From contig DURM01000011.1 of assembly GCA_012837335.1 (NCBI GenBank), forward strand, positions 1 to 48,624: a stretch of 48,624 bases of DNA. Direction: 5' to 3'. Origin of the DNA: Bacillota bacterium. Its GTDB lineage: Bacteria > Bacillota > Limnochordia > Darwinibacteriales > DTU012. Within the stretch, counting starts at the first letter, position 1. Each line of letters opens with the position of its first letter. Both the position numbers and the translations under genes were made by a program. This document shows, piece by piece, positions 10,020 to 44,234 of this stretch. The notes under the pieces were generated by a model. That model did not search any database. It had not been told where the DNA came from and saw only the letters and a list, made by a program, of their open reading frames with translations.

Positions 10020-10916
10020 CTAATCATGATAGAATACCAGTCTGTTAAAGATCAGGTAGACAATGCCCAAGATCACGCAGATCGCGCCGAAATAGATCCA
10101 AGACATGGCTGCGCTCACACCAAATCCGGCTCCCTGGAAGGTTGTATTGCGAATTAACTGTATTAATGAGTTGGATGTCGATGTAAAGAAATCAATAATT
10201 GTATAGATGATGTTTGTCAGAATCAAGGGACTGACCATTGGCAGAGTAATCAGCCAGAAGTTTTCCCACGCTGTTGCGCCTTCTACCTCTGAGGCTTCGT
10301 ACAGTGAAGGAGAAATTGACTGCAGTCCCGCCAAAAAGATCAGAATCTGAATTCCGGATGCGTTGATAATACTCGAAATACCATCAACGGCTAGGGCAAT
10401 GTACTCCATAAACTTTTCAGGTACCTGGAGGTATGTCAGGAAATTACTCAACGCTTGGAAATCGATAAACGAGTAGGTCTCCTGAACTTCTCCTCCAATA
10501 ACTCCCATCATGTAGTCCTGAATCTCGAGCTGAAGAATTACTCCCGATGCTAAAACTACAGGAAGGAAGAAAATTACCCTGAAAACCAGTCTGCCTCGGA
10601 ATTCTTGATTCAACAGCAGCGCTGCAAAGAAACTAAATACCAAGATCCAAAAAACATTGAGAAGCATAATGCCCATTACTTCAACGAGCTGACGCAGAAA
10701 ATCCGCGTGAACCCGCAAAGCGAAGTAATAGTTTTCAAAACCGATATAGGTCGTATCAAAACCGGTCTGCGTAATGGTAACTTCGTTGATGCTCAAAACA
10801 ACTGACTGGATTACCGGCGCCAAAACAAACAGCAGAAACCCAATCACGAAGGGGAGAATAAAGATGTACCCGTACACATTCTCCCGCTGCCGCATGGTCA
10901 ACCTAAAACGCTTCAT
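10020..10916 (-). CDS. Carbohydrate ABC transporter permease, MalF-like (module A)
   Basis: Inner-membrane permease of 298 residues, six predicted transmembrane helices, with an EAA-type loop YEASEVEGATAWENF near residue 215. Between helices 3 and 4 there is an insert of about 60 residues (VIGGEVQETYSF... through the predicted helix after LTYLQVPEKF), also present in the module B paralogue at 27393. I place the start at the ATG at 10916 because the upstream GTG at 10925 abuts the GGGAGG ribosome binding site. The coding region overlaps the end of the DUF5696-like gene by 14 bases, which implies translational coupling. It forms a heterodimer with the MalG-like protein downstream. Confidence 0.9.
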   Translation of the reverse strand: MKRFRLTMRQRENVYGYIFILPFVIGFLLFVLAPVIQSVVLSINEVTITQTGFDTTYIGFENYYFALRVHADFLRQLVEVMGIMLLNVFWILVFSFFAALLLNQEFRGRLVFRVIFFLPVVLASGVILQLEIQDYMMGVIGGEVQETYSFIDFQALSNFLTYLQVPEKFMEYIALAVDGISSIINASGIQILIFLAGLQSISPSLYEASEVEGATAWENFWLITLPMVSPLILTNIIYTIIDFFTSTSNSLIQLIRNTTFQGAGFGVSAAMSWIYFGAICVILGIVYLIFNRLVFYHD

Positions 10917-13695
10917 TCGGTTCACCCTCCCTAATCAGCTTAAAACCGGTACCTTCTATTTCAACTCCCTGAAACTCGACTGCCTCCGCATTATAATTAA
11001 CAATAATGCTCAACCCATTTTCATAACTGGTCTTATATACGTTTTCAGTCAGCATTTCATGACCGATAATACGCTGACCTTGAACTTGTCTCAGCACAGC
11101 ATTCATTTTATCATAAATTTCAACAGCGAGTTCAAACCAATCACCGTAATAATTAGGGAAGAGATGATCAAATTCTGTGCCTTTGACCTCAGTTCCTTCT
11201 TTGTACATCCAGCTGAAATAAGGGGCCGCTCCCGTTTCTAATGACTTAAGCACTGCGAAATCAAGGTCAGATGCGTGATTCAGCGGAGTTCCGGTATAAT
11301 TCACATAACCGTGGAGCGCCATCTGGTAAAATGGAATACTGCGCCCGACGATATTGTAATTATTGGCAGTCAGTGGAATGTTTACCACATGGCTGGCGTA
11401 AGGTACGGCGTAGACATTTGCCCTGTTGATCATCAGCTCTAGACCATATTCCTTATTCAAACGCTTCATTGCGTCTTGATTGATCACCAAGCTGTCAGCT
11501 CGTGAAACCGTACTATTTACATTATGGTCTGAATTAATCTGCGTACCTAGGTCCCCTAATGCCAAACCGCTAATTCCCAAATTTTGATAGTCTTTCATAA
11601 AACTATCAATAAAATTATTGAGCTGACCTGGTGCTGTAGCAAACGCTTGGAAAAGGTTATCCCGAATCAGCCAAACAGGCTGGCGGTTCAAGCTCTGCGC
11701 CACATGACGTTTCAGATTGACTCTAGCATACTTAGTGTCGTAAATATTGAGGAAATCAACATCTGGATAGAAGCCAACATCCCTGTCTTGTAAAAACTTA
11801 ACTAGATCTTGAAACTCTTCTCTGCTGCCCAGTTTTTCTTCAATTCGAACACGATTAGGAATACCTGGAATTAATCCGCCTTCTCGCCATCCCAGGTAGC
11901 GGAGCTGGATATTCTTAACCCCGCTGTCATCCAGCTGACCAACAATTTCCTGAACCTCACCAAACGATGTCAGTGATGTGATTACGTTCCTGGGAATGCC
12001 CATGATCGATTTCCGCACAGGTGCTGCACCAACAAGTTCCAGGTAGAATGGTATGTCGGTTCTTGGCTCCAGTTTTTCAAGACCGTATTTTCTCACCAAA
12101 TGCTCCTGAAACCGATTCGCCATACCCACATAGGTAGACTCTTCCTCAACTAAAAATGAGTAGCGAATTACAATATCCTCTTCGGGCAGTGCCTTAGCAT
12201 AGGCTTTTATCTGTCCCCTAGCGCGGCGCGCTAATTCCTCTGTTCTGTCCGTTTCAGTTAAGCTGATGTTTCCAAATGGGATCAGCACATATTCGCTGGA
12301 AACCTTGGCATGAGGAATAATGTTGCTGGCAGTATTGGCCTTAATTCTTGCTATACCGCCCCCCTCTTCAATAATAGCGAAGAAGGCTTTATTGTCTTCT
12401 CTTAAACCGAAGACCGGCATATATAATCTCTCTTTTATATAGCGATCAAATCGCTCAACAAATTCATGTTCAGCCAGACCATAAGCAATAGTATGATCCG
12501 TGCCATAGACATCCCTCGCGTACTGCACGCCAGTAGCAACACCGGTATGGATTAAAGCCCCTGAGCCATCGGGAATTAAGATGTAACCATCCTTACCGGT
12601 GGGGGATGCTCCGAAATGCGGCAGCACGTTGATTGAATACAGTGGAAAATCCACCAAAGTGCCGCCGATTTGACCAAAGTGATCAAAAACTTCAGAACGA
12701 TTGGTGGGTCGAAAATAGCTGGAGACACCTGTAATATAACGATCATTTGGCTCAACCTGAACAGGATAGTACACCAGATCCATTGGAATCCTGACAATCA
12801 AAGAATCGCCTTCAACAACATACTCTACACTGATGCGAAAGATTTCAACATTGAGCTTTGGTGGTATGATTTTGTTTGCCTCATGGTCCTTAGCAATTTC
12901 AAAAGGAGTATAGTCAATGGACTTCATTAAGTTTTGAATGTCTGTGCGATCCCACGGTCTGATAGTATTATCAATAACATAGGCAGGCATATCGATCAGC
13001 TGTTCAATATGCTCTAACCGCAGATCTGCTCTTTCAGTCAAATCGTTGTTAGCGGCAACTACTGTATCAACAAGCAGAAGGGTTAAAGTGCTTTTGTCTT
13101 TATCGCTTAGTTTTGTGCCGGGAGAAACAACCACATAATCTCCAAACTGCTGGTCCTGATTAGGAAGTTGAGTAATCGAAACCCTTTGGTTGTCTTCACT
13201 CACCTTCTCAAGGCCTATTAACTTGTATTTGCTCTTAAGCCAATCGGCATCCTTGTCCGACAGCTTCGGCAGGATCTCGTTTTCAAAGCGATCCTGGGGC
13301 ACCATCAATGGGAGCCAATCATCATCCCACCACTCCTGACCAAATAGATAGTTAACACGGATACCATTGTCAATAGATTCGATCTCGTATTGGCCATACT
13401 CAATACTATCCTTCCAGTTATTCATCTGCTTCATTTCATCAGAAGGATTGTAGTAAACTATTGCCAGCGTATCCCTTTCTGTTCGGCTGTTGATGGGATT
13501 GGAGTACCAGATGTCACCTGTTTGGTTGTGCTGCACAGCGATATATGTTGTTGCATCATCGACATACAAGGAAATCTCCGCAGACTGTGCAGCCAACCGG
13601 TAATTGTCCGGCACCTCCTGAGCTGCCCCGGCGATACTTGCCGTTATCAGCATTATTAGAACAAGTATACCTAGACCAGTTTGTTTAAATCTCAT
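10903..13695 (-). CDS. Exported DUF5696-like protein (module A)
   Basis: A 930-residue exported protein: Sec signal peptide (about residues 1-24, cleaving near IAGAAQE), no lipobox and no later membrane helix. Residues 30-400 are beta-rich (ISLYVDDATTYIAVQHNQTG near the mature start). Residues from about 545 to 820 alternate strand and helix like a TIM barrel, with LELVGAAPVRKS, IQLRYLGWREGG and LALGDLGTQINSD (Asp715). It ends in a beta domain (IIVNYNAEAVEFQGVEIEG). I recognise the overall form as DUF5696, which in Paenibacillus-type genomes is found beside sugar permeases. A glycosidase-like fold is plausible, but no catalytic pair is proven. It is a full-length paralogue of 28323-31037; Asp715 is kept in both (LADLASRLYGDY there). 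It is translationally coupled to the MalF gene. Confidence 0.7.
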   Translation of the reverse strand: MRFKQTGLGILVLIMLITASIAGAAQEVPDNYRLAAQSAEISLYVDDATTYIAVQHNQTGDIWYSNPINSRTERDTLAIVYYNPSDEMKQMNNWKDSIEYGQYEIESIDNGIRVNYLFGQEWWDDDWLPLMVPQDRFENEILPKLSDKDADWLKSKYKLIGLEKVSEDNQRVSITQLPNQDQQFGDYVVVSPGTKLSDKDKSTLTLLLVDTVVAANNDLTERADLRLEHIEQLIDMPAYVIDNTIRPWDRTDIQNLMKSIDYTPFEIAKDHEANKIIPPKLNVEIFRISVEYVVEGDSLIVRIPMDLVYYPVQVEPNDRYITGVSSYFRPTNRSEVFDHFGQIGGTLVDFPLYSINVLPHFGASPTGKDGYILIPDGSGALIHTGVATGVQYARDVYGTDHTIAYGLAEHEFVERFDRYIKERLYMPVFGLREDNKAFFAIIEEGGGIARIKANTASNIIPHAKVSSEYVLIPFGNISLTETDRTEELARRARGQIKAYAKALPEEDIVIRYSFLVEEESTYVGMANRFQEHLVRKYGLEKLEPRTDIPFYLELVGAAPVRKSIMGIPRNVITSLTSFGEVQEIVGQLDDSGVKNIQLRYLGWREGGLIPGIPNRVRIEEKLGSREEFQDLVKFLQDRDVGFYPDVDFLNIYDTKYARVNLKRHVAQSLNRQPVWLIRDNLFQAFATAPGQLNNFIDSFMKDYQNLGISGLALGDLGTQINSDHNVNSTVSRADSLVINQDAMKRLNKEYGLELMINRANVYAVPYASHVVNIPLTANNYNIVGRSIPFYQMALHGYVNYTGTPLNHASDLDFAVLKSLETGAAPYFSWMYKEGTEVKGTEFDHLFPNYYGDWFELAVEIYDKMNAVLRQVQGQRIIGHEMLTENVYKTSYENGLSIIVNYNAEAVEFQGVEIEGTGFKLIREGEPNEAF

Positions 13696-13729
13696 GGGTT
13701 TCAGCTCCCTTCCACTCAGGCTAACTACA

Positions 13730-15931
13730 TCATCTAAAGACTAGTTCCAGATAGATTTTGTAGATAAAACCTATCACCTGATTCACTAAGCTGGTAAACA
13801 ACAAGAGAATAAACAATACGACAGCAATTCCGGCAACAGTAGAAACTGAAGTAATCAGAGTTTTGGGGCCGGAATACTCATGAGTTATCATGGTGCCGAC
13901 ATAAATCAGACCAACCATCCAAACCACTGCAATCCAAACCGCTAATTGGATGAATGCTCCCTCTGGTTGAGTGAGGAAATGGCTGATTAATGTTACTGGT
14001 ACAAACACCAACGGAAGTGGTGTAAGTGCATAAGCTGTTGCTATATAAATGTCTCTAAATGTACCTTTACCCTCCATTAAAGTAGTCAGTGCCCAGTTGC
14101 AGATGCACCAAAGCAGTACCGGAATGAGGATACTTGATGCTTCTGTCAGGATATTTAACGTTTCAACTCTGAGGGTGTTAAAAGTAAATGCTGTGTACTG
14201 GCGGTAAAACACCCAAGATAAAACAGTAACTAACAGGATGATATTGGCAGCTCCTACTGTTCCCCGCTCTTCATGTTTCAAATCCCAGTAACCATCAAAG
14301 GGATGGAAGATTACATGCAGAGCATAGCGAAGACTGTCTAAAGTCTTTAAGAAAATTGCTTTAAAAGATTGAGTGTTGTTGATGGGAACACCAAGGTACA
14401 CAACGGTAGCTGCGGTTTCTCCCCATCTGTCCACTAACGCTCCACCAACTGCTTGCTTTAGGCGCTGCCAGAGACGGAATTTGGAAATAAGATAAATAGC
14501 TAAAGCTATGACAATAATAATCCACGCAACAAGTCCAAAATGCTCATTTACCCAGTTCTGACGGTATTTAGTAAATGCCTGGGAATAACCGGAGCGATTT
14601 TGGCCGTGCCGGAATGATTGCATGGCTTCTTCGTAATGACCATCATAGAAGAGCGCCCGACCGATGCCGGTATGGGCCACGTCGAGATTAGGATTGATTC
14701 GGGTCAGCTGCTGCCAGGTCTCTGTAGAGCGCTGGTAATCACCTGCGTCATAATACTCAAGGGCAGCGTGGATCATTTTTGCATAATTGGTCGGCTCGAA
14801 AATCGTAACTCTTCCATCCGCGTCGAGAACAATCACCTGCTCTCCTTTGGTAGTGATTGCCTGCGGCCGCGTAAACAGGCCTACAGCATCACCAATGCCG
14901 CCAAAGACATACAGCAGGTTACCTTGATTATCATAGGTGAAGATTCTTCCACGCTGGCGGTCCAACGCGCTGAACATGCCAAATTCACGGTTAACGATAT
15001 CAACGAAGCGGCTTCTCGTATCGTTATTTTCACTGCTGTCAAAAGCAGACGCAGAGTCGCCCCGCATTGGAACGAAACCGTTGCGAACAATAATATCTAC
15101 TCCACCCGGATTTAAGCGTTTAATTGCCGTATCATTAGCGGGACCTGCCTCAACAGCATATATAAAGCCTTCGGGATCAATATCAATGCTGGCATACTCA
15201 ATCGGCAGGTACAGCTGGCTTCTTTCTCTCTGTTCATCTGATTGGATATAAGCCCAAAATAACTCTACTGCAGATACTGAAACGCGCGGCGCACCGACAA
15301 AGCCGGTAAAATCGCCCTCATTGTTTAAAACCACAATACCATCGTAGAGGTCTTGAGCAATTGCGTAAATACGTCCAATGTGATCTACGCCGACTTTGCG
15401 CGGCCTAAACACAAATCGATCAGGGAACATATCAGGGTAATCGACATGGGGCGAGGTAATGATATCAAGCAGATTTCCTTCATAATCGAGGATGACTATC
15501 CGCTCTTTCCCGGTATCCGCTACATAAAACTTCCCATCAGGAGTTACGAAAAATCCCTCAGGTGAACTGAAGCGATCGACTTGATCGCCGTTCATAAATT
15601 CACTGATACTACGGATAAACTGCCAGTTTTCATCAAGTTCGATGATCCGGTGTTTACCTGTATCTAGGATATAGGCTCTGTCACCTACAACTGTGATATC
15701 CTGAGGATTTGACAGAGTTTCTGCTCCCATATCCAGCCCGGTCATCATTTTTACGGGCAGATACGCTTGAGGAGCCGGTACCGGAGCACCCCAAAAATCA
15801 TAAATGTAGCTTTCATACGGAACTACGAGTGATTCTACTGCTGATACCTTCGTCGAGATGAGCATTAAAAGAATAACTATGAGTCCTACTGCGGCTGAGG
15901 TTGACTTACTTCTCTTAATGCTGAGTTTCAC
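13730..15931 (-). CDS. NHL-repeat / TPR / Yip1-domain membrane protein (module A)
   Basis: A 733-residue membrane protein. An N-terminal signal sequence precedes a beta-propeller of NHL repeats (about residues 65-390; for example SNPQDITVVGDRAYILDTGK and SSPEGFFVTPDGKFYVADTG). Two TPR-like hairpins follow (about 395-465; ALEYYDAGDYQRS, GRALFYDGHYEEAM), then one transmembrane helix (WIIIVIALAIYLI) and a C-terminal Yip1-type bundle of about five helices (550-733; HPFDGYWDLKHEERG precedes the first). The propeller and TPR should face outward. The GTG at 15931 has AAGGAG nine bases upstream and gives a good signal peptide; the earlier ATG at 15955 directly abuts AAGG. A gene of the same architecture and position heads module B (31054-33195). 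Function unknown; a sensing or scaffolding role for the adjacent transporter is inference. Confidence 0.75.
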   Translation of the reverse strand: MKLSIKRSKSTSAAVGLIVILLMLISTKVSAVESLVVPYESYIYDFWGAPVPAPQAYLPVKMMTGLDMGAETLSNPQDITVVGDRAYILDTGKHRIIELDENWQFIRSISEFMNGDQVDRFSSPEGFFVTPDGKFYVADTGKERIVILDYEGNLLDIITSPHVDYPDMFPDRFVFRPRKVGVDHIGRIYAIAQDLYDGIVVLNNEGDFTGFVGAPRVSVSAVELFWAYIQSDEQRERSQLYLPIEYASIDIDPEGFIYAVEAGPANDTAIKRLNPGGVDIIVRNGFVPMRGDSASAFDSSENNDTRSRFVDIVNREFGMFSALDRQRGRIFTYDNQGNLLYVFGGIGDAVGLFTRPQAITTKGEQVIVLDADGRVTIFEPTNYAKMIHAALEYYDAGDYQRSTETWQQLTRINPNLDVAHTGIGRALFYDGHYEEAMQSFRHGQNRSGYSQAFTKYRQNWVNEHFGLVAWIIIVIALAIYLISKFRLWQRLKQAVGGALVDRWGETAATVVYLGVPINNTQSFKAIFLKTLDSLRYALHVIFHPFDGYWDLKHEERGTVGAANIILLVTVLSWVFYRQYTAFTFNTLRVETLNILTEASSILIPVLLWCICNWALTTLMEGKGTFRDIYIATAYALTPLPLVFVPVTLISHFLTQPEGAFIQLAVWIAVVWMVGLIYVGTMITHEYSGPKTLITSVSTVAGIAVVLFILLLFTSLVNQVIGFIYKIYLELVFR

Positions 15932-16225
15932 TGCAGGTCTCTCCTTCCAATTCATCCTTGTGATTTATAATGAATTAAGAACGCCCGCTCGATAAACCCT
16001 AACCTAGATTAATTGTTCGCCTCCGATTAACTAAATCCTCTTTTATTTAACATGGCATCGCCGCACACAAGCGTGCAGATTTTACCATACTCTCAATTCT
16101 ATATTTAATTATATATTAACATTAGGTAAATTTCCTTATTTTTCTGCCGCAAATACAGTGGATTTTATACATATTCGCCAATTTTATTCCCAAGTTTATC
16201 CAGTAAAACTTCCTAAAACCCATGT
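15932..16225. other. Intergenic region upstream of module A
   Basis: About 290 bases with no gene. It is AT-rich around 16100-16140 and holds TATAAT-like sequences, but I find no -35 element at good spacing. A short inverted repeat, GCACAC-AA-GCGTGC (16063-16076, one mismatch), could be a protein-binding site. With the terminator at 16226-16259 upstream, this is the natural place for a module A promoter on the minus strand. Confidence 0.4.
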
Positions 16226-28322: not shown

Positions 28323-31037
28323 TTACTCCCCCTCGAAAACTCGATAGCTCTTTGGCTCGATCCTGTAACCATCGATGGTAACCGGTTCAAGATCGTAATT
28401 CACTACTATCCGAACTCCATTCTCATATACTGTGGCATACACTCTGTCCTGCAGTTTTTGATGATCGATAATCCTTTCATTCTGCAGATTTATAAATACA
28501 CCATTCAATTCATTGTAAACATCGACAATATAGTCAGTGATTGTTTTAAACTCGCCTGTGTAATAATCGGCATACAAGCTGCCTTTAAGGATGCTTGGAT
28601 TGGCATTAAACGCCTGGAAGAACGGATAGGCGCCTACTTCAACCATCTTCAGCAGATAATCTCCATAATCACCGATGCGGTTTAATGGTTCACCGGCATA
28701 GTGCACAAATCCATGCAGCACAATTGGAACAAAGGGTACTGTTTCATCAGTTATATCAATTCCTGTATGGTGCAGTGGCAGATTAATCACACTTGAAACA
28801 TAAGGAATTGCATAACTGTTGATCCCGTAAGATTGAATTTCCAACCCGTATTCGCCCTTAATTTTGGCCAACTGCTGTTCAATAATCCGAATAGCTTCTT
28901 CGCGAATTACCACATGTCCCCGGCGGTAGTCGCCATAGAGCCTGCTCGCTAAATCAGCGAGGTGAATTCCTGAAAACTCATACTGCTGTTGAGAAACCAA
29001 ATAGCGGCTTACTAATGAATCCAGTTTTGCTGGAGAAAGAATGTAATAGGGCATGCCCGTTATCCGGTCTATGCCTGTTGCAACAGTCCTCGTCAGTGCC
29101 CGGGTACCGTCCCGCATAGATATAAATCCATCGAGCATAGTGTCATACTTAATATGCTGGAAATTTACAGCCGGATATAAACGGCCTCCACTGTCTGCAA
29201 GCATTCTGTTAAGCTCAGTTAACTCAGCCTTGGTTCCCAGCTTGGATTCTAACTTGGCTTTGCTGGGATAGCGGTGACTTACACCATTACTCATCCATCC
29301 CGTATAAGTAACACTCAGGTTTTTAATCCCTTTATCAAAGAGTTGCGATACAAATGCCTGTGCTTCAGCAAATGTTGTCAGCGGGACAATCACATCGCGA
29401 GGGACACCCAAAATTGGCCGTCGGTCTTGGATCGCACCAATTAACTCCAGCATCAATGGTACTTGAGGCTGAGGGTCGATTCTAGTTAGGAATCCCTTTG
29501 CAAGCAGATAATTTTGGTAATAATGGGCCATTCCAACATAGTCTGCCTGATCATCAACTAAAAAAGCATAGCGGATTTGAATGTCTTGATCATACATTTT
29601 CGGCTGATAAACATTAACCGAACTCTGTCCGCTCTGCACCCACTGCGCCGAAGCACGGTGAATATCGGGCATGTCTCCCTGCAGCGAAGAAGTTGTTCTT
29701 TCAAAAATAATAAATGATGGAAAGATCGTATTGTACGATATCCGCCTCCCGGATATGTCGGCATTAAGGCGGGCAATGCTTGCTCCCGCTTCGATAATGG
29801 CGAATAATGCGCGACTATCCTTCTTCACGCCAAAAACAGGAAGACTGTTTGTGTGAGTTATGACATTAGCGCTGGGAGCGCTTACAGCATGATCCTGATC
29901 GAAGATTCTTCGAGTGTAAGGATTAAGATGAGTCTTGCCGTTGTCAAAATAGATGAGAGAACCAGGGCCATCCGGTACAAATAAGTACCCATCACTTCCC
30001 TGTTCTGCAGCTCCAAAGTAAGGGAGCAGATCGATTTGAGTCAAAATATAGGTCACGCGATTACCTTCGCGGTTAATCACATTGAGGGGATACTCAATGC
30101 CAGAAGTATCAAGATTAACTACCAAATTTTCTCCATCGATGCGGTACTCTATTGGCACTTTAAACACAACGATATTTGGCTCGCCCGCTTCGAGGTTAAA
30201 CTGTTGGTAACCTTCACCGATAATATGAGGATCAAATCCTACATCTCTAGTAATCTCAATTACCGCATCTTTATCCCACGGAAGCATATCCCTCTCAAGG
30301 GATTTCAGCATATAAAATGGTTTGCCAAGAAAAGCCTCTAAATCCTCGGGTTTTACCTGACTGCCTTGAGTATAGTCGGAACGACAGGCAACCACATGGC
30401 CAAGAAATACATTGTGAATGATCCGCTGATCCCGCGCGTTGAGATTGCCCCCAAGATCATGGATTACATATTTACCAGCTATGTTTGCAGTCTGACCTTC
30501 TTCTGGCTCCCTCAGTTCTACTAAAGCATACAGATTGGAGATGGTGCGGCCTTGAGCAGCATCAAGTTTGGCAAAAAACTCAGTTTCGTATAAATTCTGC
30601 TCTACAATCAGCGGCAGATAGTACTTGTCATCCCATTCCTTGCCGAATACATACTCAACGCGGATGCCATTAGCAATTGGTTCCGCCTCAAATTGACCGT
30701 ATGCGACGCTGTCGTTGTAACTATCCATTGTCCGCATCACGTCGCCCGGTTCGTAATAGGTGATTCTAAGCTGGGCGCCTAAAGCATCCTTGGCTGCACC
30801 GCGAGCTGTCTTTTCAAAACTAGCCCTGTTAGGCGGGTTGCTGTACCAAATCAAATCGGTGCGGAGATCATGGACAGCTACTTCAGCGGTCTCTGAGTTA
30901 AAATAGAGGCTTAAGTATTCATTTGCCGCAACAAACTCATAACCAGCGAGATCATCAGCTGCAGCAATCCCGACAGCAGCTGTTAAGGACAGCACTAGTA
31001 CTAAAAGTAAAACCCCTGATTGCCTTGTAATTTTCAT
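28323..31037 (-). CDS. Exported DUF5696-like protein (module B)
   Basis: A 904-residue exported protein, full-length paralogue of 10903-13695. Signal peptide MKITRQSGVLLLVLVLSLTA, cleaving near GIAAADD, no lipobox. Domain order is the same: N-terminal beta domain (EYLSLYFNSETAEVAVHDLR), a strand/helix barrel-like region in the second half (MLELIGAIQDRRPILG, LSVTYTGWMSNG, IHLADLASRLYGDY) and a terminal beta domain (VRIVVNYDLEPVTIDGYRIE). The start at 31037 is supported by AGGAGG eight bases upstream; an in-frame reading from 31160 would overlap the Yip1 gene and spoil the signal peptide. Only scattered identity with the module A copy suggests an old duplication. Function unknown; a glycosidase-like fold is inferred. 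Confidence 0.7.
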   Translation of the reverse strand: MKITRQSGVLLLVLVLSLTAAVGIAAADDLAGYEFVAANEYLSLYFNSETAEVAVHDLRTDLIWYSNPPNRASFEKTARGAAKDALGAQLRITYYEPGDVMRTMDSYNDSVAYGQFEAEPIANGIRVEYVFGKEWDDKYYLPLIVEQNLYETEFFAKLDAAQGRTISNLYALVELREPEEGQTANIAGKYVIHDLGGNLNARDQRIIHNVFLGHVVACRSDYTQGSQVKPEDLEAFLGKPFYMLKSLERDMLPWDKDAVIEITRDVGFDPHIIGEGYQQFNLEAGEPNIVVFKVPIEYRIDGENLVVNLDTSGIEYPLNVINREGNRVTYILTQIDLLPYFGAAEQGSDGYLFVPDGPGSLIYFDNGKTHLNPYTRRIFDQDHAVSAPSANVITHTNSLPVFGVKKDSRALFAIIEAGASIARLNADISGRRISYNTIFPSFIIFERTTSSLQGDMPDIHRASAQWVQSGQSSVNVYQPKMYDQDIQIRYAFLVDDQADYVGMAHYYQNYLLAKGFLTRIDPQPQVPLMLELIGAIQDRRPILGVPRDVIVPLTTFAEAQAFVSQLFDKGIKNLSVTYTGWMSNGVSHRYPSKAKLESKLGTKAELTELNRMLADSGGRLYPAVNFQHIKYDTMLDGFISMRDGTRALTRTVATGIDRITGMPYYILSPAKLDSLVSRYLVSQQQYEFSGIHLADLASRLYGDYRRGHVVIREEAIRIIEQQLAKIKGEYGLEIQSYGINSYAIPYVSSVINLPLHHTGIDITDETVPFVPIVLHGFVHYAGEPLNRIGDYGDYLLKMVEVGAYPFFQAFNANPSILKGSLYADYYTGEFKTITDYIVDVYNELNGVFINLQNERIIDHQKLQDRVYATVYENGVRIVVNYDLEPVTIDGYRIEPKSYRVFEGE

Positions 31038-31053
31038 TGAGGCTTCCTCCTTG

Positions 31054-33195
31054 CTACAACCTGAAGACAAACTCACGATAAACTTCTCCAAAGAAGGCGA
31101 ATAACTGCAGCACAATATCCACAAATAACAGCAGAATAAACAAGGTAATCCCGACTCCAACTAAAATCAGGATAGTAACCCCGATTGTTGCTGGTAGACT
31201 GTATTCATGGGTAACCATCGTGCCGAAAAACATCAGCATCAGCGACCAAACCAGCGCAATGGAAAGCACTAAGTAATAAAATGTGCCCTCATCCATGGTT
31301 AGATAATTGCTGATAATTGTTAAAGGTACAAGAACCAAAATCAGCGGAGTGAACGAATAAGATGTTGCGATTAAAATTTCCTTAAAGCTGCCCTTACCAT
31401 TCATCAAAGTTGTCAGCGACCAGTTGATGGCTGCCCACATTATGATCGGAACTAGTATACTGATCGATTCCGAAACAATGTTCAATGTTCTTGGATCCCG
31501 GGTATTGAAAATAAATCCGCTGTACTGATAGTTAACTAAGTACGAAATAATCAGGAGCGCTAAAAGCACCATTGCTGTCGGCAGATTACCCCGCTTCTCA
31601 TATTTCAAATCCCAGAAACCTTGGATTGGACTAACAATCAGTTTTAAGGCGAAATGGAGGCCATGTTTAATCCGCAGCAGCTGGACTTTCAGCGGCCGCT
31701 TTTTCATCGACTCCCACTGCAGCACTTTTTCATATGCCGCAGCTTGTTCTGCTTTAGCTTCGGCAACACTCTGCTCACTCTTTTTCGAGGTTGCAAAGAA
31801 CAGAATATAGATAATCAAAGCTGCAGCAATAAACATATACACTCCAAAATACTTCTCTGTCACCTGCTTGCGGTAATACCGGAATGCTTCAGAATAATTT
31901 TCGCGATCGTTTGCCAATTTGTAATTAGCCATAGCACCGGCATAATCTCCCTGCATCAGCAGAGCATTACCGATACCTGTATAAGCAAGATCGTAGTTAG
32001 CATTCAGCTCTAGAACTTGATGCCAGCATGCGGTCGCTTGATCATAATTACCGGAAGCATAGAAGTCGATCGCTTGATGAATCAACTGTTGGTACTCTGT
32101 AGGAGCAAATACCGTTATTGTATTCTTGATCGCATCAACCACCAGCAGGTGATTGTCTAACTCGGTCATGGCTGCCGGATTAGAGAACGCTCCTTGAACT
32201 TCTCCGATTGCACCAAAAGCGTAAAGCAGATGACCAGCCGGACTATAGGTAAAGATTCTACCGTTAGTGCGGTCTAAAACAGAAAAGATGTCGTTTTCGC
32301 GGCTGATTACATCAACAAACACCGATGTGGTGACATCGGGGAAGTCACCAATCGGAGGCGAAGTAGGAATCCGCATCAACCGATCTAAACCAGCAGTATT
32401 AATTCTTCTGACTTTTTCTGCTTCACCAATCTCACCGCCAGTAGCAGTTGCATAGATAAAACCGCGGTGATCGATGTCTAAGTTACTGTGCTCTACCGGC
32501 AAGAACAGCCGCATTCTATCACGCTGAGCTTTTGTACCAATGAGGCGCCAAATATAATCCGCCAAAGTTGGATAAACCTTAGGTGCTCCCACAAATCCCT
32601 GAAAATTACCATATAAATCAAATTCCATGATTCCATCGTATACACCCGCTGAAATCACATAAATCGTTCCGTACTGGTCAACACCAATTTTATCAGGTCG
32701 AAAGCGGAAATCACTAGTAAACAACTCAGGGTCTATTTCAGCTGGAGAAGTGATAATCTGCTTTAACTGAAGATCCCCATCGAGAATTACAATTCGGTTA
32801 TTATCCCGATCTGCAACGTAAATGTCACCAGTTTCGGTAACATGAATGCCTCGCGGGTTCTTAAAGCGGTCAGTCGTTCCAGCGTTTTCGAAACCATCAA
32901 TAATCCTGATAACTTCCCAATCGCGATTAACGTGGACAATGCGGTTGTTCCCAGAATCTGCAATATAAATTTGATCATCAAGCGCAAAAATGTCCTGCGG
33001 TGATCTAAAATTGCTTATTCCTAACTCCTGTCCATACACCACCCGAGCCGGTACATATGCGTGAGGAGAAGGTACGGGATTATTCCAATAGTCATAGGTA
33101 TAAGTCTCATATGGTACTGCGGCTGCCGGCATTGATATGATCAGCATCAGTGCACAGACAAACAAATATGCCTTAGTTAACTTCAAGTTCCTCAC
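31054..33195 (-). CDS. NHL-repeat / TPR / Yip1-domain membrane protein (module B)
   Basis: A 713-residue protein with the same architecture as 13730-15931. Signal sequence (cleaving near PAAAVPYETYTYDYW), NHL propeller (about residues 55-385; RSPQDIFALDDQIYIADSGN, KNPRGIHVTETGDIYVADRD), TPR-like hairpins (390-460; AIDFYASGNYDQATACW, GNALLMQGDYAGAMANY), one transmembrane helix (FIAAALIIYILFFA), a charged Ala/Glu/Lys helix (SKKSEQSVAEAKAEQAAAY) and a C-terminal Yip1-type helix bundle from about 530. The charged helix is absent from the module A copy. It starts with GTG behind GAGG. It precedes the DUF5696-like gene by 16 bases. Function unknown; its position suggests a role in sensing or organising sugar uptake. 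Confidence 0.75.
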   Translation of the reverse strand: MRNLKLTKAYLFVCALMLIISMPAAAVPYETYTYDYWNNPVPSPHAYVPARVVYGQELGISNFRSPQDIFALDDQIYIADSGNNRIVHVNRDWEVIRIIDGFENAGTTDRFKNPRGIHVTETGDIYVADRDNNRIVILDGDLQLKQIITSPAEIDPELFTSDFRFRPDKIGVDQYGTIYVISAGVYDGIMEFDLYGNFQGFVGAPKVYPTLADYIWRLIGTKAQRDRMRLFLPVEHSNLDIDHRGFIYATATGGEIGEAEKVRRINTAGLDRLMRIPTSPPIGDFPDVTTSVFVDVISRENDIFSVLDRTNGRIFTYSPAGHLLYAFGAIGEVQGAFSNPAAMTELDNHLLVVDAIKNTITVFAPTEYQQLIHQAIDFYASGNYDQATACWHQVLELNANYDLAYTGIGNALLMQGDYAGAMANYKLANDRENYSEAFRYYRKQVTEKYFGVYMFIAAALIIYILFFATSKKSEQSVAEAKAEQAAAYEKVLQWESMKKRPLKVQLLRIKHGLHFALKLIVSPIQGFWDLKYEKRGNLPTAMVLLALLIISYLVNYQYSGFIFNTRDPRTLNIVSESISILVPIIMWAAINWSLTTLMNGKGSFKEILIATSYSFTPLILVLVPLTIISNYLTMDEGTFYYLVLSIALVWSLMLMFFGTMVTHEYSLPATIGVTILILVGVGITLFILLLFVDIVLQLFAFFGEVYREFVFRL

Positions 33196-38290: not shown

Positions 38291-39148
38291 TTGAATACAG
38301 TAGATTTTTCGATTCATTATAATAAACTGGACACTTCGTATACAATGCCCCAGAAGCATGAGCATAATCATTATGAAATATATTATCTGGTTTCAGGAGA
38401 GCGTTTTTATTTCATTGAGGATCAAATTTTTCATGTTCATCCGGGGGATTTGGTGTTCATTTCAAAAGGATATATTCACCGGACAACCGAGGCGGACAGC
38501 AGCATGGGAGCGCACGCCCGCTATGTGGTTTACTTCACCGAAACTTTTCTCAGACAGCTGCTCAGCCAAGCTCAAGTTAGTGAACTGCTGTCCTGTTTTT
38601 ACCACGACACAAAGGTAGTCCACTTGACTGTCGCACAGCAGAACTTTATTGAATCACTCCTTACGAAGCTGGCAGACGAGTACAGCAACCACCAACCTGG
38701 CGGTGAGCTGTATCAAAGAGTTCTGTTAACAGAGCTTCTCTTGTTTTCTAATCGCCTAAATTTTGATCTGGTCTATCACCATCTCAACGAGCTTAACCCG
38801 GTTTACTTGACCATCCATAAGATTGTTCAGCATGTCAGAAAGAATTATCGGGAAAAGCTGACTCTCACTGCTATCGCTAATGAATTTTATATCAGTCCTT
38901 ACTATCTCAGTAGAATGTTTAAACAAGTTACTGGGCTGACGCTAACTGAGTACTTAAACAACACCCGCATTAAGGCAGCGCAGCAGCTTCTGCGTACTAC
39001 CGATCTGCCGATCAGCGCCATTTCTGAGCAGGTGGGTTATGAAAGCCACTCGCATTTTGGCAGAGTATTCCGGAAATTTACCAGCTGCTCACCTATGCAG
39101 TACCGAAAAACCCATAGAACAGCTAAAGCAGAAAACCTAAGTCTGTAA
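38291..39148 (+). CDS. AraC-family transcriptional regulator
   Basis: A 285-residue DNA-binding regulator. An N-terminal cupin-type sensing domain (HEHNHYEIYYLVSGERFYF; VHPGDLVFISKGYIH) is followed by two helix-turn-helix motifs (about residues 190-280: LTLTAIANEFYISPYYLSRM and ISAISEQVGYESHSHFGRVF). I place the start at the TTG at 38291, since AGGGGTGAG lies just upstream; a TTG at 38210 has no ribosome binding site and would overlap the candidate promoter at 38239. It is divergent from the 37-kb minus-strand locus and is its only visible regulator, so control of pectin use is likely (inference). Its 3' end overlaps that of the convergent DapB-like gene by 26 bases. Confidence 0.88.
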   Translation: MNTVDFSIHYNKLDTSYTMPQKHEHNHYEIYYLVSGERFYFIEDQIFHVHPGDLVFISKGYIHRTTEADSSMGAHARYVVYFTETFLRQLLSQAQVSELLSCFYHDTKVVHLTVAQQNFIESLLTKLADEYSNHQPGGELYQRVLLTELLLFSNRLNFDLVYHHLNELNPVYLTIHKIVQHVRKNYREKLTLTAIANEFYISPYYLSRMFKQVTGLTLTEYLNNTRIKAAQQLLRTTDLPISAISEQVGYESHSHFGRVFRKFTSCSPMQYRKTHRTAKAENLSL

Positions 39149-39860
39149 CTAGATGCTCATATCGGCCAATGTTGACCACTGCTTTATATACCCCCGGACC
39201 AAAACAGACCCGATCGCTCACATCATGACTAATTGTAATCGTTTCACCCATCCCGCCGAATTTCAGCTGCTGGCTGACGGTCTGACCCGGGATGCGAAAG
39301 CTGTAAACCGGTATGGATTCGTGACTGTAATTCTTGTATTTTTTAAGCTCTGCAGCTAACTGCTTGGAAGTTCCCGAAGGAACTTCCTTTTTTTGATCTG
39401 AATAATAATCAATTACCGCTGCATATGCAAACAGCTCAGCTGCTGCGGCTAGTGCTTTCTTGACAACTATCATACCCAGGGCGAAGTTTGGGATTAATGC
39501 TCCTCCAAGCTTATGCTCACGGCAGAGATCTGCGAACAGCTGCTGGTCTTTACTGCTCAAGCCCGTGGTACCGATAATCGGATGAATGCGTTTTTCTATG
39601 CAGAAGGTAAAATGGTTTACTGCTGCCTCTGGCACTGTAAAATCAACGACATCTGTTGGCAAAACAGCTGCATACGCCTGTTCTAAAGTGCCAAAGATGG
39701 GAATCTCTACATCTAAATCAGGCAGCAAACTGCTTAAATACCGCCCTGCGTTTTGTCTGCTGACAATGCCAACTACCTCCAGGCCAGCACAACCGATTAA
39801 ATACTGAACTACAGCCTTCCCGGTTCGTCCGGTACCACCTGCCACAACTACACGATGCAC
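39123..39860 (-). CDS. DapB-like dihydrodipicolinate reductase homologue with substituted catalytic His
   Basis: A 245-residue protein with the two-domain form of 4-hydroxy-tetrahydrodipicolinate reductase. It has an N-terminal nucleotide-binding motif AGGTGRTG (residues 7-14), VVDFTVPEAA (71-80), GTTGLS (97-102) and PNFALGMIV (124-132). The substrate motif is DYYSDQKKEVPSGT (151-164). In E. coli DapB the same stretch is EAHHRHKVDAPSGT; by alignment Tyr153 replaces catalytic His159, Ser154 replaces His160, and Lys157 keeps Lys163. No other lysine-pathway gene is nearby. It starts with GTG behind AAGGTGG. It could be a divergent DapB or a reductase with another substrate; the second reading seems at least as likely. 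Confidence 0.75.
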   Translation of the reverse strand: MHRVVVAGGTGRTGKAVVQYLIGCAGLEVVGIVSRQNAGRYLSSLLPDLDVEIPIFGTLEQAYAAVLPTDVVDFTVPEAAVNHFTFCIEKRIHPIIGTTGLSSKDQQLFADLCREHKLGGALIPNFALGMIVVKKALAAAAELFAYAAVIDYYSDQKKEVPSGTSKQLAAELKKYKNYSHESIPVYSFRIPGQTVSQQLKFGGMGETITISHDVSDRVCFGPGVYKAVVNIGRYEHLVTDLGFLL

Positions 39861-39974: not shown

Positions 39975-42611
39975 CTATGCTCCCTGTCCTCCTACCATTA
40001 ACTCTTGGCGAGCGGCCACAACTTGCTCCCAAACTGATTCCGGCAGGGGCAGATCAAAACTGCGAAATCCGGCAAGCCTAAATCCATGCCGCTCGGCACA
40101 CTCCCGCAGTTCGTTCATATAGGCAATATTTAGATCCGCGCCAATACTGGTGTTTGTATAGTTGCGGTCGAGAGCTAACATGATTGTCTCCGACATGCAC
40201 GCATAAGCCTGACCCTTGTCAAAACCAAAATTCCAGCCCAAATCTACCTCACCCGGTAGTTCAATAACCCCTCCATCTATCACCAGCACGTCCTGACGCT
40301 GTGTAAGCACATCACCGCTTACATTCGCTGGCCGAGACATATCACAAATTAAGGCGCCTGGTTTGATAATATCCGGAGTAATTAAATCATCCGTGCTGCT
40401 GGTTGCTGCCAGAACTAAATCTGCCGCAGGTAAATACGACCGCAGGTCGACAGTGACGGTAACTGGACATCCCGGTTTTTCAAGTTGGCTTTCGCAGTAA
40501 TCCATCCATTCACTCAGTCCTGCGTCCAAGGCAGGCAGATCAGGTAATCTGTTAACCACCGCACCGATACTGTTAGCTGCAAATTCCCGTCCGGCGAAAT
40601 GCTGTTCGCGCAGATAGCGGTACATCTCGGCCATGACTTTAAGCATCCTAAAGCGGCTCTTTTCCGGACGCGCCGGATTGCCGATTAAAATTAGGCGAGC
40701 CACTTGCTCTGCCAAAAGCATAGCAGAAGCCTTACCTATTGCGCCACCAGCACCCACAATAGCAGCCGTTGACCGGTCTAAAGCCAATCCTAGTTTGGTC
40801 CCTCCGATGGTTAGGGCATCAATTCCCGAAAGAACCGTATAGCTGTTGCCGGTTGTAATCGCTACCGGTGCTTTACCTACCAAAGAGCGGCCGCCTCCAG
40901 TAACAACCGAGGTATAGGCACCCAACCCAACAATTTTGGCACCGCGATGTACAGCCAATTCTACAGCTTCCAATATTTTTGCCTCCGCTTCTACTCGGGG
41001 CATTTGCTGCAGCTCATCCGCCGTATACGGAACTACTATAAAATCGCCAAAAGCACTCTGCCCGGTTTGGGATGTGATCCTGGCGCTGGAGATAACATAT
41101 GGTTCCAGCATATCAGTCCAGCGGCCGGCAAGTTCAGCCAGCTGCTCATCGGAGAAGGCCTCCAAGCTGCGATCATAATCTGAGTAGTTTTTCATACTCA
41201 GGGGATGAACTAAAAATGCAAATCGGCCGTCCTCCTGTTCGAGACTTTGCTCTGCTGAAGGACTTAACTCTACCTGCGGCGGCTGACTATCTGTCTTCAG
41301 ATCTATCGACAGCAAATGCGCCGTCAAAGCAGCTGTGTTCCGCTGTGCCAGCACCCTAACTGTTTTCTCAATAGCGGTCAGGGCATGACCGATCTGCTCA
41401 TCGCTGATAATCAACGGCGGTTCAATTCGGATTACGCTGGCACCATTTAAAGTCGGCGCAACTCGCACCTTACCCACATTCAGCAGGTGGCTGGCAATGA
41501 TCGGCGTAAGCACTTTCTGCTCAGCCATTATACCAAGGAGGCTGTTAGGATAAACTTCTCGACTGCTTCCAAAATCCAATCCGAGCATTAAACCACGGCC
41601 CCGAACACCTTTAATAATATCTGGATATTGAGCTTGGATTTTTTCCAAACCAGCCTTTAGAATACTTCCCTTGCGGGCAGCTTCCTTAACTAAGAATTGA
41701 TCGTTGGCTGCGAGCAGTTCAACCACTTTAGCGCCTACTCGACAGGCAATGGTATTGCCGGCAAAAGTTGACGAGTGCTTGGTTGCAAACTCCTCATTAT
41801 AAACATCATCTGTGCACAGCACAGCTCCGATGGGAATCAGTCCGCCACCCAACGCTTTGGCAAGAGTTATAATATCGCACATTACACCTTCGGCCTCGGC
41901 TGCGAACATGGTCCCAGTGCGGCCTAAGCCAGTTTGGATCTCATCGAAAATCAGCAGAACTCCATATTCCGTGCACAGCCGCCGCACCTCAGCCAGGTAT
42001 CCACTTGGAGGTTCGACAATACCCCCTTCTCCCTGAATGGGCTCTAGAATCACCGCGGCAATTTGATCCGCCGCAGCAGCCAGCAGCTGTTCAAGGCTTG
42101 CAGCATCTCCGTACGGAACAAAGTGAAATCCTTCCATCGGGGCTCCGAATGCTTGTTGATAGCTTCTGTTTCCTGTCGCTGACAGCGCACCGAGAGTTTT
42201 GCCGTGAAAACTGTTTTTGGTAGAAACTATGCCTTTTTTACCGGTCTTGGATCGAGCAAGCTTGATTGCTGCTTCAACCGCTTCCGCACCGCTGTTGGCA
42301 AATGTTACTTTAGCCATGCCGGGTGGCGCTATTTCAATCAGTCTTTTAGCCAGTTCCCCTGCTGGTGTCAGCAATGAAGGCTGAACGAAACTGGGCTCGA
42401 GGGAGACTTCCACCTCCCGAATCGCTTCCCAGATTTCCACTGGATTAAAGCCGAAAGGCAGCGCACCATAGGCTGCGATTAAATCCAAATATGTATTTCC
42501 TTCCTGGTCGTAGAGGTAACACCCCTGTCCCTTGACATAGCGTTTGTCTAAACCGATCTTGGTTAACAGATCTCCCAAATTGGGATTGACAAAATCAATA
42601 TACGGATGCAT
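39975..42611 (-). CDS. Fusion of class III aminotransferase and acyl-ACP reductase-like domain
   Basis: An 878-residue cytoplasmic protein with two full domains. Residues 1-430 are a class III PLP aminotransferase: FANSGAEAVEAAIKLAR (104-120), SFHGKTLGA (134-142), FDEIQTGLGRTG (222-233, Asp223 contacting PLP) and TLAKALGGGLIPIG (249-262, PLP lysine Lys252). Residues 463-855 resemble cyanobacterial long-chain acyl-ACP reductase: FAFLVHPLS (464-472), VGLGAYTSVV (561-570), the Rossmann motif VGAGGAIGKA (619-628), VLVIDGGVIELPGEVD (775-790) and QAYACMSETIML (801-812), where Cys805 matches the acyl-accepting cysteine. The pair could turn an acyl thioester into an aldehyde and then a primary amine; that is inference. 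It has its own promoter and operator upstream and a terminator downstream. The acceptor and substrate are unknown. Confidence 0.82.
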   Translation of the reverse strand: MHPYIDFVNPNLGDLLTKIGLDKRYVKGQGCYLYDQEGNTYLDLIAAYGALPFGFNPVEIWEAIREVEVSLEPSFVQPSLLTPAGELAKRLIEIAPPGMAKVTFANSGAEAVEAAIKLARSKTGKKGIVSTKNSFHGKTLGALSATGNRSYQQAFGAPMEGFHFVPYGDAASLEQLLAAAADQIAAVILEPIQGEGGIVEPPSGYLAEVRRLCTEYGVLLIFDEIQTGLGRTGTMFAAEAEGVMCDIITLAKALGGGLIPIGAVLCTDDVYNEEFATKHSSTFAGNTIACRVGAKVVELLAANDQFLVKEAARKGSILKAGLEKIQAQYPDIIKGVRGRGLMLGLDFGSSREVYPNSLLGIMAEQKVLTPIIASHLLNVGKVRVAPTLNGASVIRIEPPLIISDEQIGHALTAIEKTVRVLAQRNTAALTAHLLSIDLKTDSQPPQVELSPSAEQSLEQEDGRFAFLVHPLSMKNYSDYDRSLEAFSDEQLAELAGRWTDMLEPYVISSARITSQTGQSAFGDFIVVPYTADELQQMPRVEAEAKILEAVELAVHRGAKIVGLGAYTSVVTGGGRSLVGKAPVAITTGNSYTVLSGIDALTIGGTKLGLALDRSTAAIVGAGGAIGKASAMLLAEQVARLILIGNPARPEKSRFRMLKVMAEMYRYLREQHFAGREFAANSIGAVVNRLPDLPALDAGLSEWMDYCESQLEKPGCPVTVTVDLRSYLPAADLVLAATSSTDDLITPDIIKPGALICDMSRPANVSGDVLTQRQDVLVIDGGVIELPGEVDLGWNFGFDKGQAYACMSETIMLALDRNYTNTSIGADLNIAYMNELRECAERHGFRLAGFRSFDLPLPESVWEQVVAARQELMVGGQGA

Positions 42612-42684: not shown

Positions 42685-42770
42685 CAAAAATGCCTAACTA
42701 AAACTCCGAAAAAAGAGAGGAATAACGCATGAATCCAAGAAATGTTATAGTTGAATAGGGGGGGTTGTTC

Positions 42771-44234
42771 GTGAAACAAATCAGCTTAATCTCAGTTCTT
42801 ATCGTCATACTTGCCTTTCCTGCCTGTGTTTTTGCAGAACAAGATGTAGTTGAGGTCTTCTTTATCCCGGAGCAGGGTTTTATCCGTGTTAATGCCAGGA
42901 TCTCCGTTCCTGCAGAGCAGGATCAAATTCAGTTTAAACTATTTCCCAAAGCCCATGTAACTGCGCTTTGGATTCCCACTCTGCTTACATATGAAGTAAA
43001 CAACACTACTGCCGCAGCGGTAGTATCTGCTGTGTTTCAGCCTGATAGTGCTGCGCAGACATTAGACCTGAGCTATGAAGGTTTTCTTCCCAATTATGAA
43101 TCAGAGCCAATGCAGGCTCTTGACGAAACTTTAATGTGGTATCCCCTGTTTGAATCACAGCCAAACCGCGATTACCGCATTAAGCTTTCCCTCTCACGAG
43201 ACTATCTGCCTAAGCTGGATGGAAAACTGCTGGATGTACGCGAGTCTGCTTTTGCAACCTATACCTGGTTGGTTGAAAACCAAGGTTACCCAGTGATTTG
43301 GTTTGGGGATCAGGAGGACACTCCGGAAGACGAGCTTGATGCAGTTGATGAAGGGACACCGGCTGACGAATCGGAGCCGGATGAAACACCAGAACCGGAT
43401 GAGGAACCGGAACATCCGGACACACCAGATCCCACTGATGAACCGGACCCAAGCGATGCGACGGAACACACATCAGAACTTGGCGATGAATTAAAGCCAG
43501 ATTCGCCTGACACCAGCGAAGACAAAGAACCAGAGCCACTTGAGCCGGCCGAAGCAGAAGATTTGGAAGATGGTCAAGGCTTAGACTGGATGCAAGACCT
43601 AGTGGAAAGTACAGATGAAGAACTCATAAATGAAGCGGTTACAGAGTTTGTCAGAGCTATTTCCCTCAGCAGCCGGGACGACCTAAACGCCTTGATTCAC
43701 CCTGACTTTACTGATCGCGAGCAGTTCATTGCTTATTTGATTTCGCGGCCTCACGACAGCACCATTACCAATCAAGTTGTAGAAATTAGACCTACTGAGT
43801 CAGGATCTATAGTCTACTGCGATCTGTATGAAAATGATCTGTTAACGTCGAAAGTATACAGTCTCTGGCAGAACTCAGCCACAAACTGGTTTTTGGTTGA
43901 GTGGTCCCAGATTCCCGCTGAGTATGAATTTGACTTGAGAATTGGAAATTCCGAGCTTCAGCGGTGGCTTGATGATTTTCGCACTGCGGTAACAGAGTTT
44001 GACCTGGTTTGGCTCGATTATCACATTACCCATAATAAACTGCAGGCTGTTAAGCTGCTGCAGGCGATCCGGTCTGAAATCGAGTGGATTGCGTCGGCTG
44101 TCAGCACTTCTGATGACCAAGCTGTTTTTATGATCAAAACGCAGTTTAGCGCCAGATTAAAGTTGACACTAAACTTGTACCCAGATAGCGAAACCTGGAA
44201 AATCAGCGCTATCGCTGCTGAGCCTGTATACTAA
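42771..44234 (+). CDS. Secreted protein of unknown function with acidic Pro/Glu/Asp linker
   Basis: A 487-residue exported protein I do not recognise. Signal peptide MKQISLISVLIVILAFPACVFA; the cysteine near its end is not in a convincing lipobox. Residues 20-185 are a beta-rich domain (FFIPEQGFIRVNARISVP; PQPNRDY-like region near 135). Residues about 185-275 are a low-complexity acidic linker rich in Pro, Glu and Asp (DEPDPSDATEHTSELG is a typical stretch). Residues 285-487 look like two small alpha+beta domains (FVRAISLSSRDDLNALIHPD; DFRTAVTEFDLVWLDYHITH), possibly NTF2-like. I chose the GTG at 42771, six bases after a G7 ribosome binding site; a TTG two codons earlier abuts it. A strong shared terminator lies just after the stop codon. 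Confidence 0.75.
   Translation: MKQISLISVLIVILAFPACVFAEQDVVEVFFIPEQGFIRVNARISVPAEQDQIQFKLFPKAHVTALWIPTLLTYEVNNTTAAAVVSAVFQPDSAAQTLDLSYEGFLPNYESEPMQALDETLMWYPLFESQPNRDYRIKLSLSRDYLPKLDGKLLDVRESAFATYTWLVENQGYPVIWFGDQEDTPEDELDAVDEGTPADESEPDETPEPDEEPEHPDTPDPTDEPDPSDATEHTSELGDELKPDSPDTSEDKEPEPLEPAEAEDLEDGQGLDWMQDLVESTDEELINEAVTEFVRAISLSSRDDLNALIHPDFTDREQFIAYLISRPHDSTITNQVVEIRPTESGSIVYCDLYENDLLTSKVYSLWQNSATNWFLVEWSQIPAEYEFDLRIGNSELQRWLDDFRTAVTEFDLVWLDYHITHNKLQAVKLLQAIRSEIEWIASAVSTSDDQAVFMIKTQFSARLKLTLNLYPDSETWKISAIAAEPVY

Follow-up and report, generated by a model that had tools for sequence, protein, structure and literature searches.

Characterised enzymes of the same build

PtTamH from the tambjamine pathway of Pseudoalteromonas tunicata consists of an N-terminal transaminase and a C-terminal thioester reductase of the acyl-ACP reductase (AAR) type. 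Together with TamA, it converts C12 acid to C12 amine in vitro with NADH and L-glutamate, and the aldehyde is detected when glutamate is omitted (PMC9594044). The same domain order occurs in KecF, encoded in the koreenceine cluster that is needed for antagonistic activity (PMC6498172). PP_2782 (PpKTFusion) has been purified along with TsFusion and TmFusion from Thermaerobacter and TfFusion from Thermincola ferriacetica, all three of thermophilic origin; the enzymes transaminate aliphatic aldehydes with glutamate, and TfFusion, TmFusion and TsFusion prefer L-glutamate (PMC10829540). Cysteines C824, C815 and C909 of TfFusion, TsFusion and TmFusion have been mapped to C294 of the Synechococcus enzyme (SeAAR), and in the accessible text transamination, not reduction, is the activity given for the Bacillota fusions (PMC10829540). 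In PigE from the prodigiosin pathway, a thioester is first reduced and the product then aminated (PMC8341465).

We compared these enzymes with a fusion encoded in a 48,624-nucleotide stretch of DNA from a Bacillota bacterium (contig DURM01000011.1, hereafter the window). A first-pass annotation of this stretch had stated that no characterised enzyme of exactly this architecture was known, a statement that is refuted by PtTamH (PMC9594044), KecF (PMC6498172) and PpKTFusion, TmFusion, TsFusion and TfFusion (PMC10829540). With its transaminase first and its AAR-type thioester reductase second, the window protein resembles PtTamH; the latter, however, is part of a natural-product cluster that also supplies its adenylation-ACP partner, TamA, whereas the window gene is not accompanied by such a partner. 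The domain order is also that of KecF and of PP_2782, both from koreenceine-type clusters (PMC6498172, PMC10829540), but KecF differs in residing in a type II PKS cluster and in that its product cyclises to a tetrahydropyridine alkaloid. TfFusion, TsFusion and TmFusion share both the domain order and the AAR-like C-terminal domain with the window fusion but stem from thermophilic hosts. In a sampled genus (G048 and G133) the fusion cysteine is found at position 815 when counted from an MHPF start, which is the number given for TsFusion and would be compatible with this genus being Thermaerobacter. PigE (4ppm) is the best PDB sequence match for both halves of the window protein; both of its domains are homologous and the chemistry is the same, but they are arranged in reverse order with the reductase first (PMC8341465). 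In its sequence, the window protein has the TamH/KecF-type build, with the aminotransferase first, the AAR-type reductase second and conserved catalytic residues.

An intact gene for a two-domain protein

The fusion gene (39975..42611, minus strand) is a single open reading frame with an ATG start and encodes 878 amino acids. The open frame, the domain matches and the identical domain order in relatives confirm a real, intact gene for one protein in which a class III aminotransferase is followed by an AAR-like thioester reductase, just as had been proposed. An assembly join or annotation artefact is ruled out because most relatives carry full-length open frames with the same domain order. The AlphaFold2 model of the whole protein has a mean pLDDT of 88 and a pTM of 0.84, with both domains predicted confidently. 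Stretches of low confidence are short (residues 48-50, 445-454 and 875-878), the second of them lying in the linker (residues 426-458; 41238..41336, minus strand). Lys252, the GxGGxIG motif and Cys805, which the first-pass annotation had singled out, are indeed kept: Lys252, G620, G623, I625, G626 and C805 are invariant in an alignment of 23 full-length sequences, comprising the window protein and 22 relatives.

The aminotransferase domain

Residues 1-425 (41337..42611, minus strand) make up the aminotransferase domain, as indicated by PF00202, by matches to PigE and YgjG and by a VIA-align Z of about 47. The Pfam Aminotran_3 match covers residues 25-417 with an E value of 2.8e-100. Searches with the whole model (Foldseek, VIA-align) listed only aminotransferases. 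The PLP lysine, Lys252, resides in an AKALGGG motif (41856..41858, minus strand). Arg395 (41427..41429, minus strand) and Glu195 are likewise invariant among the 23 sequences; we take both to lie where proteins of this fold engage glutamate, with Arg395 expected to bind its carboxylate.

In ArgD and ornithine aminotransferase, the arginine of the HGR motif holds the alpha-carboxylate of the substrate. This arginine is absent from the fusion, and alignment and motif comparison place Lys138 of an HGKT motif (42198..42200, minus strand) where ArgD has Arg. HGKT is present in 43 of the 46 fusions and HGKS in one, while the motif was not found in two. PigE also has HGKT, putrescine aminotransferase has HGKS, and the ArgD-like protein of the same genome has HGRT. 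Given the role of the arginine in ArgD and ornithine aminotransferase, its loss would suit a plain aldehyde or amine, and the occurrence of HGKT in place of HGRT points to a substrate that lacks an alpha-carboxylate.

The reductase domain

The C-terminal domain (residues 459-878; 39978..41237, minus strand) was recognised through domain and profile matches as an AAR-like, COG5322-type thioester reductase, and the family profile raises the match of this half to 4e-31 and 6e-49. In sequence and profile alignments, homology spans the whole length of AAR and extends beyond the Rossmann core, whose GAGGAIG motif is located at residues 620-626 (40734..40754, minus strand; from the alignment). An insertion at about residues 660-716 (40464..40634, minus strand) is absent from the unfused clostridial reductases with which it was aligned. 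Cys805 (40197..40199, minus strand), counted through the alignments, falls on C294 of SeAAR and C296 of PigE, the acyl-accepting cysteines of these enzymes (PMC9594044, PMC8341465), and in the AlphaFold2 model it is situated at the start of a helix formed by residues 804-814. The sequence thus bears out the earlier assignment of Cys805 to the acyl-accepting position and also that of the C-terminal half to the AAR family, as an AAR homologue though outside the curated cyanobacterial equivalog. TIGR04058, the model for the latter, matches in two pieces, each scoring about 44 bits where 449.7 are required, and because the reductase is so far below this value, a chain length cannot be transferred from AAR. 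For the PigE family (NF053554), in which the domain order is reversed, the protein scores 549 bits, below the cut-off of 850.

The name carried by COG5322 (PMC10829540), and also weak matches in Pfam to the Rossmann domains of shikimate and THF dehydrogenases, could be read as indicating an amino-acid dehydrogenase, in which case the fusion would deaminate or interconvert amino acids. The conserved acyl-Cys, the match over the full AAR length and the thioester reductase activity of the relatives that have been tested (PMC9594044, PMC8341465) speak against this, and we regard it as highly improbable. It is quite possible, if short of probable, that the fusion is a fatty alkylamine enzyme that turns normal fatty acyl-ACP into a long-chain amine for a membrane or surface lipid, as is suggested by its homology to AAR, which acts on long-chain acyl-ACP, and to TamH with its preference for C12. 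The large distance of the reductase from the AAR equivalog, on the other hand, argues against such a role, and a lipid gene was not recognised beside the fusion. Moreover, we know of no long-chain-amine lipid in these bacteria.

Proposed reaction

We consider it highly probable that the fusion is a bifunctional reductive-amination enzyme resembling TamH and KecF, which would convert a carrier-bound acyl group via the aldehyde to the primary amine. In the C-terminal domain, Cys805 would accept the acyl group from its carrier (phosphopantetheine-bound acyl-ACP being most likely), and the enzyme-bound thioester would be reduced to the aldehyde by NAD(P)H. The N-terminal domain, with PLP on Lys252 and glutamate as the likely donor, would then convert the aldehyde to the primary amine. 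Both reactions and their coupling are proposed by analogy with tested relatives; the conserved residues and the biochemistry of TamH and PigE lend support to this sequence of thioester, aldehyde and primary amine, which had also been the suggestion of the first-pass annotation.

Relatives with additional domains indicate what may feed the enzyme. A protein of 1,581 amino acids from a member of the Anaerolineae (L132, 631-5373) comprises AMP-binding, carrier, aminotransferase and reductase domains, its reductase being 47% identical to that of the window. On paper, this chain looks like TamA and TamH in one and would constitute a complete acid-to-amine enzyme. A Leisingera plasmid encodes a 1,403-aa protein with aminotransferase, reductase and AMP-binding domains (L184, 8579-12787), and a Planctomycetota relative of the fusion starts with a TubC docking domain. 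Acyl-activating, carrier or docking domains in these three relatives with the same core suggest that carrier-bound acyl groups are what the core receives. The Leisingera gene adjoins an MMPL transporter gene, and a separate adenylate-forming enzyme is encoded nearby.

Gene neighbourhood and a DapB-like paralog

Near the fusion gene, the window encodes a ZnuABC-like metal transporter, an RluA-type pseudouridine synthase, a 229-aa unknown protein, an AraC regulator and a sugar transporter. In the window, we recognised no gene for a carrier protein, an adenylation enzyme or a PKS next to the fusion, and none of the scanned neighbours is an acyl-activating or carrier gene. A 489-aa protein without a Pfam match and with a middle part rich in Glu, Asp and Pro is encoded divergently from the fusion (42765-44234) and is conserved as its neighbour in nine loci from the window's order. 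At a greater distance, the window contains two similar blocks (10903-15955 and 28323-33195), in each of which a DUF5696 protein lies beside an NHL/Yip1 protein; the second block extends further, to permeases of sugar-type ABC transporters and a solute-binding protein.

Directly downstream of the fusion, separated by a gap of 114 bp, resides a gene for a DapB-like paralog (39123..39860, minus strand), identified by profile matches (NCBIfam dapB, 129.5 bits; cut-off 122). In the window's order, nine genomes have a DapB-like gene immediately behind the fusion, and every one of them contains another DapB homologue elsewhere. The fusion-linked copies lack the usual active-site HH (YYSDQKKEVPSGT vs YHHNQKKDAPSGT) while the lysine and the PSGT motif are kept. 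We set ordinary lysine synthesis aside as the role of the linked copy because each of the nine genomes has a second DapB homologue and because the catalytic histidines are missing from the linked copy. With Lys and PSGT retained and the His pair lost, its substrate has probably changed. The protein is a possible accessory reductase and may act on a different cyclic imine.

This linkage bears on the nature of the substrate. The two steps proposed above might be carried out on an acyl thioester that is small or bears a keto group; the amine would then close to a cyclic imine, be reduced by the linked DapB-like protein and give a small or cyclic amine instead of a lipid. The position directly behind the fusion in nine genomes, the probable change of substrate and the cyclisation of the products of KecF and PigE (PMC6498172, PMC8341465) fit such a scheme. 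We nevertheless consider it rather doubtful, as the majority of fusions lack an adjoining DapB-like gene, even within the order itself, and a supply pathway was not identified.

Distribution and phylogeny

The first-pass annotation had regarded the lipid-like amine that it proposed for the fusion as surprising in such an organism. In fact, the family is widespread in Bacillota. Among the 41 nearest genomes, 38 contain the reductase domain, nearly always visibly fused in a frame of about 850-940 amino acids; across the phylum, the reductase occurs in fused or unfused form in 244 of 398 sampled genomes, and fusions from Thermaerobacter and Thermincola have been purified (PMC10829540). Roughly 48 genomes of this sample possess a frame long enough for a fusion, and most of the other carriers have an unfused protein of about 360-400 amino acids. 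Fusions are present in Syntrophomonas, Sporotomaculum, Desulfovirgula, Dethiobacter and Halanaerobiales within the Bacillota and, outside the phylum, in Pseudomonas, Planctomycetota, Chloroflexota and Solirubrobacter.

In a tree of the reductase domain, 46 aminotransferase-first fusions, those from Pseudomonas included, are found on one side of a branch, with 21 unfused proteins elsewhere and the PigE type apart. The fusion group has a support of 71 in this tree and of 88 in the aminotransferase tree, some branches being very long and AAR and TamH themselves being absent from both. With these values, a single origin of the aminotransferase-first fusions appears likely.

A conserved reductase locus in Clostridia

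A recurrent gene order in Clostridia consists of coaX, dusB, a gene for an HTH protein (c1), a gene for a 300-aa protein (c3), the unfused reductase gene, greA and lysS (loci L077-L094; e.g. L088, 4918-10750). This dusB-regulator-c3-reductase-greA-lysS locus, which we did not find in the literature searched, and its empty slot in the window's order are new in this analysis. In that order, dusB, c1, c3, greA and lysS occur with no reductase in between (G010 and G032; the G000 contig breaks off shortly behind c3), and the fusion, which is the sole reductase detected in the genome, is encoded at another site. In other genomes, the fusion is connected with the same genes: it directly follows c3 in G226, with lysS beyond, and in G039, c3 is located just upstream of it in G382, and a c1-like gene adjoins it in G133. 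The unfused COG5322-type reductase is homologous to the corresponding part of the fusion and has the same Cys motif, but it lacks an aminotransferase as well as the 660-716 insertion and is about 34-37% identical.

The c3 protein (about 300 amino acids) is present in 39 of 41 relatives and has no Pfam or NCBIfam match; examples are encoded in L185 (G000 contig 16; 685-1593), L071 (6374-7300) and L187 (2497-3414). It was detected in all 20 tested genomes with the reductase vs six of 20 without, a co-occurrence with a one-sided hypergeometric probability of about 2e-6 among genomes that are related. The best match of its predicted model (pLDDT 89.5) is AAR 6jzu (Z 14.2, rmsd 4.1, 247 aligned), followed by a carmabin TAD domain (Z 13.5) and by glutamate dehydrogenases (10.5 and below), and the relation to AAR goes undetected by profile-profile comparison (hhalign probability 0.2%). 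A TNVMEAVLVAL segment of c3 resembles YACMSETIMLAL with Asn for Cys, and it stands at a helix start as in the fusion. The AAR-like fold of the single predicted model, together with this exchange, suggests that c3 has the fold of AAR but lacks its catalytic cysteine; it may serve as a partner subunit. The family is presumably the one named 'quinate 5-dehydrogenase' in annotations; a literature search under this name yielded nothing useful.

We tentatively propose, as a possibility we would not yet call probable, that a conserved clostridial reductase system, which comprises the c1 regulator, c3 and an AAR-like reductase and normally resides between dusB and greA-lysS, has the Bacillota fusion as its amine-forming variant. 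Lineages would then possess either the reductase alone, forming an aldehyde, or the aminotransferase-fused protein, forming an amine.

Implications

No paper giving the purpose of the reductase in this phylum was found in our literature search. The fusion moves from an 'unknown architecture' to a known biocatalyst family, and the Bacillota proteins are candidate acid-to-amine biocatalysts. Comparison of the c1-c3-reductase locus provides a testable handle on function. If the proposal is true, the split between unfused and fused forms would point to an aldehyde- or amine-bearing metabolite that is common in anaerobic Bacillota.
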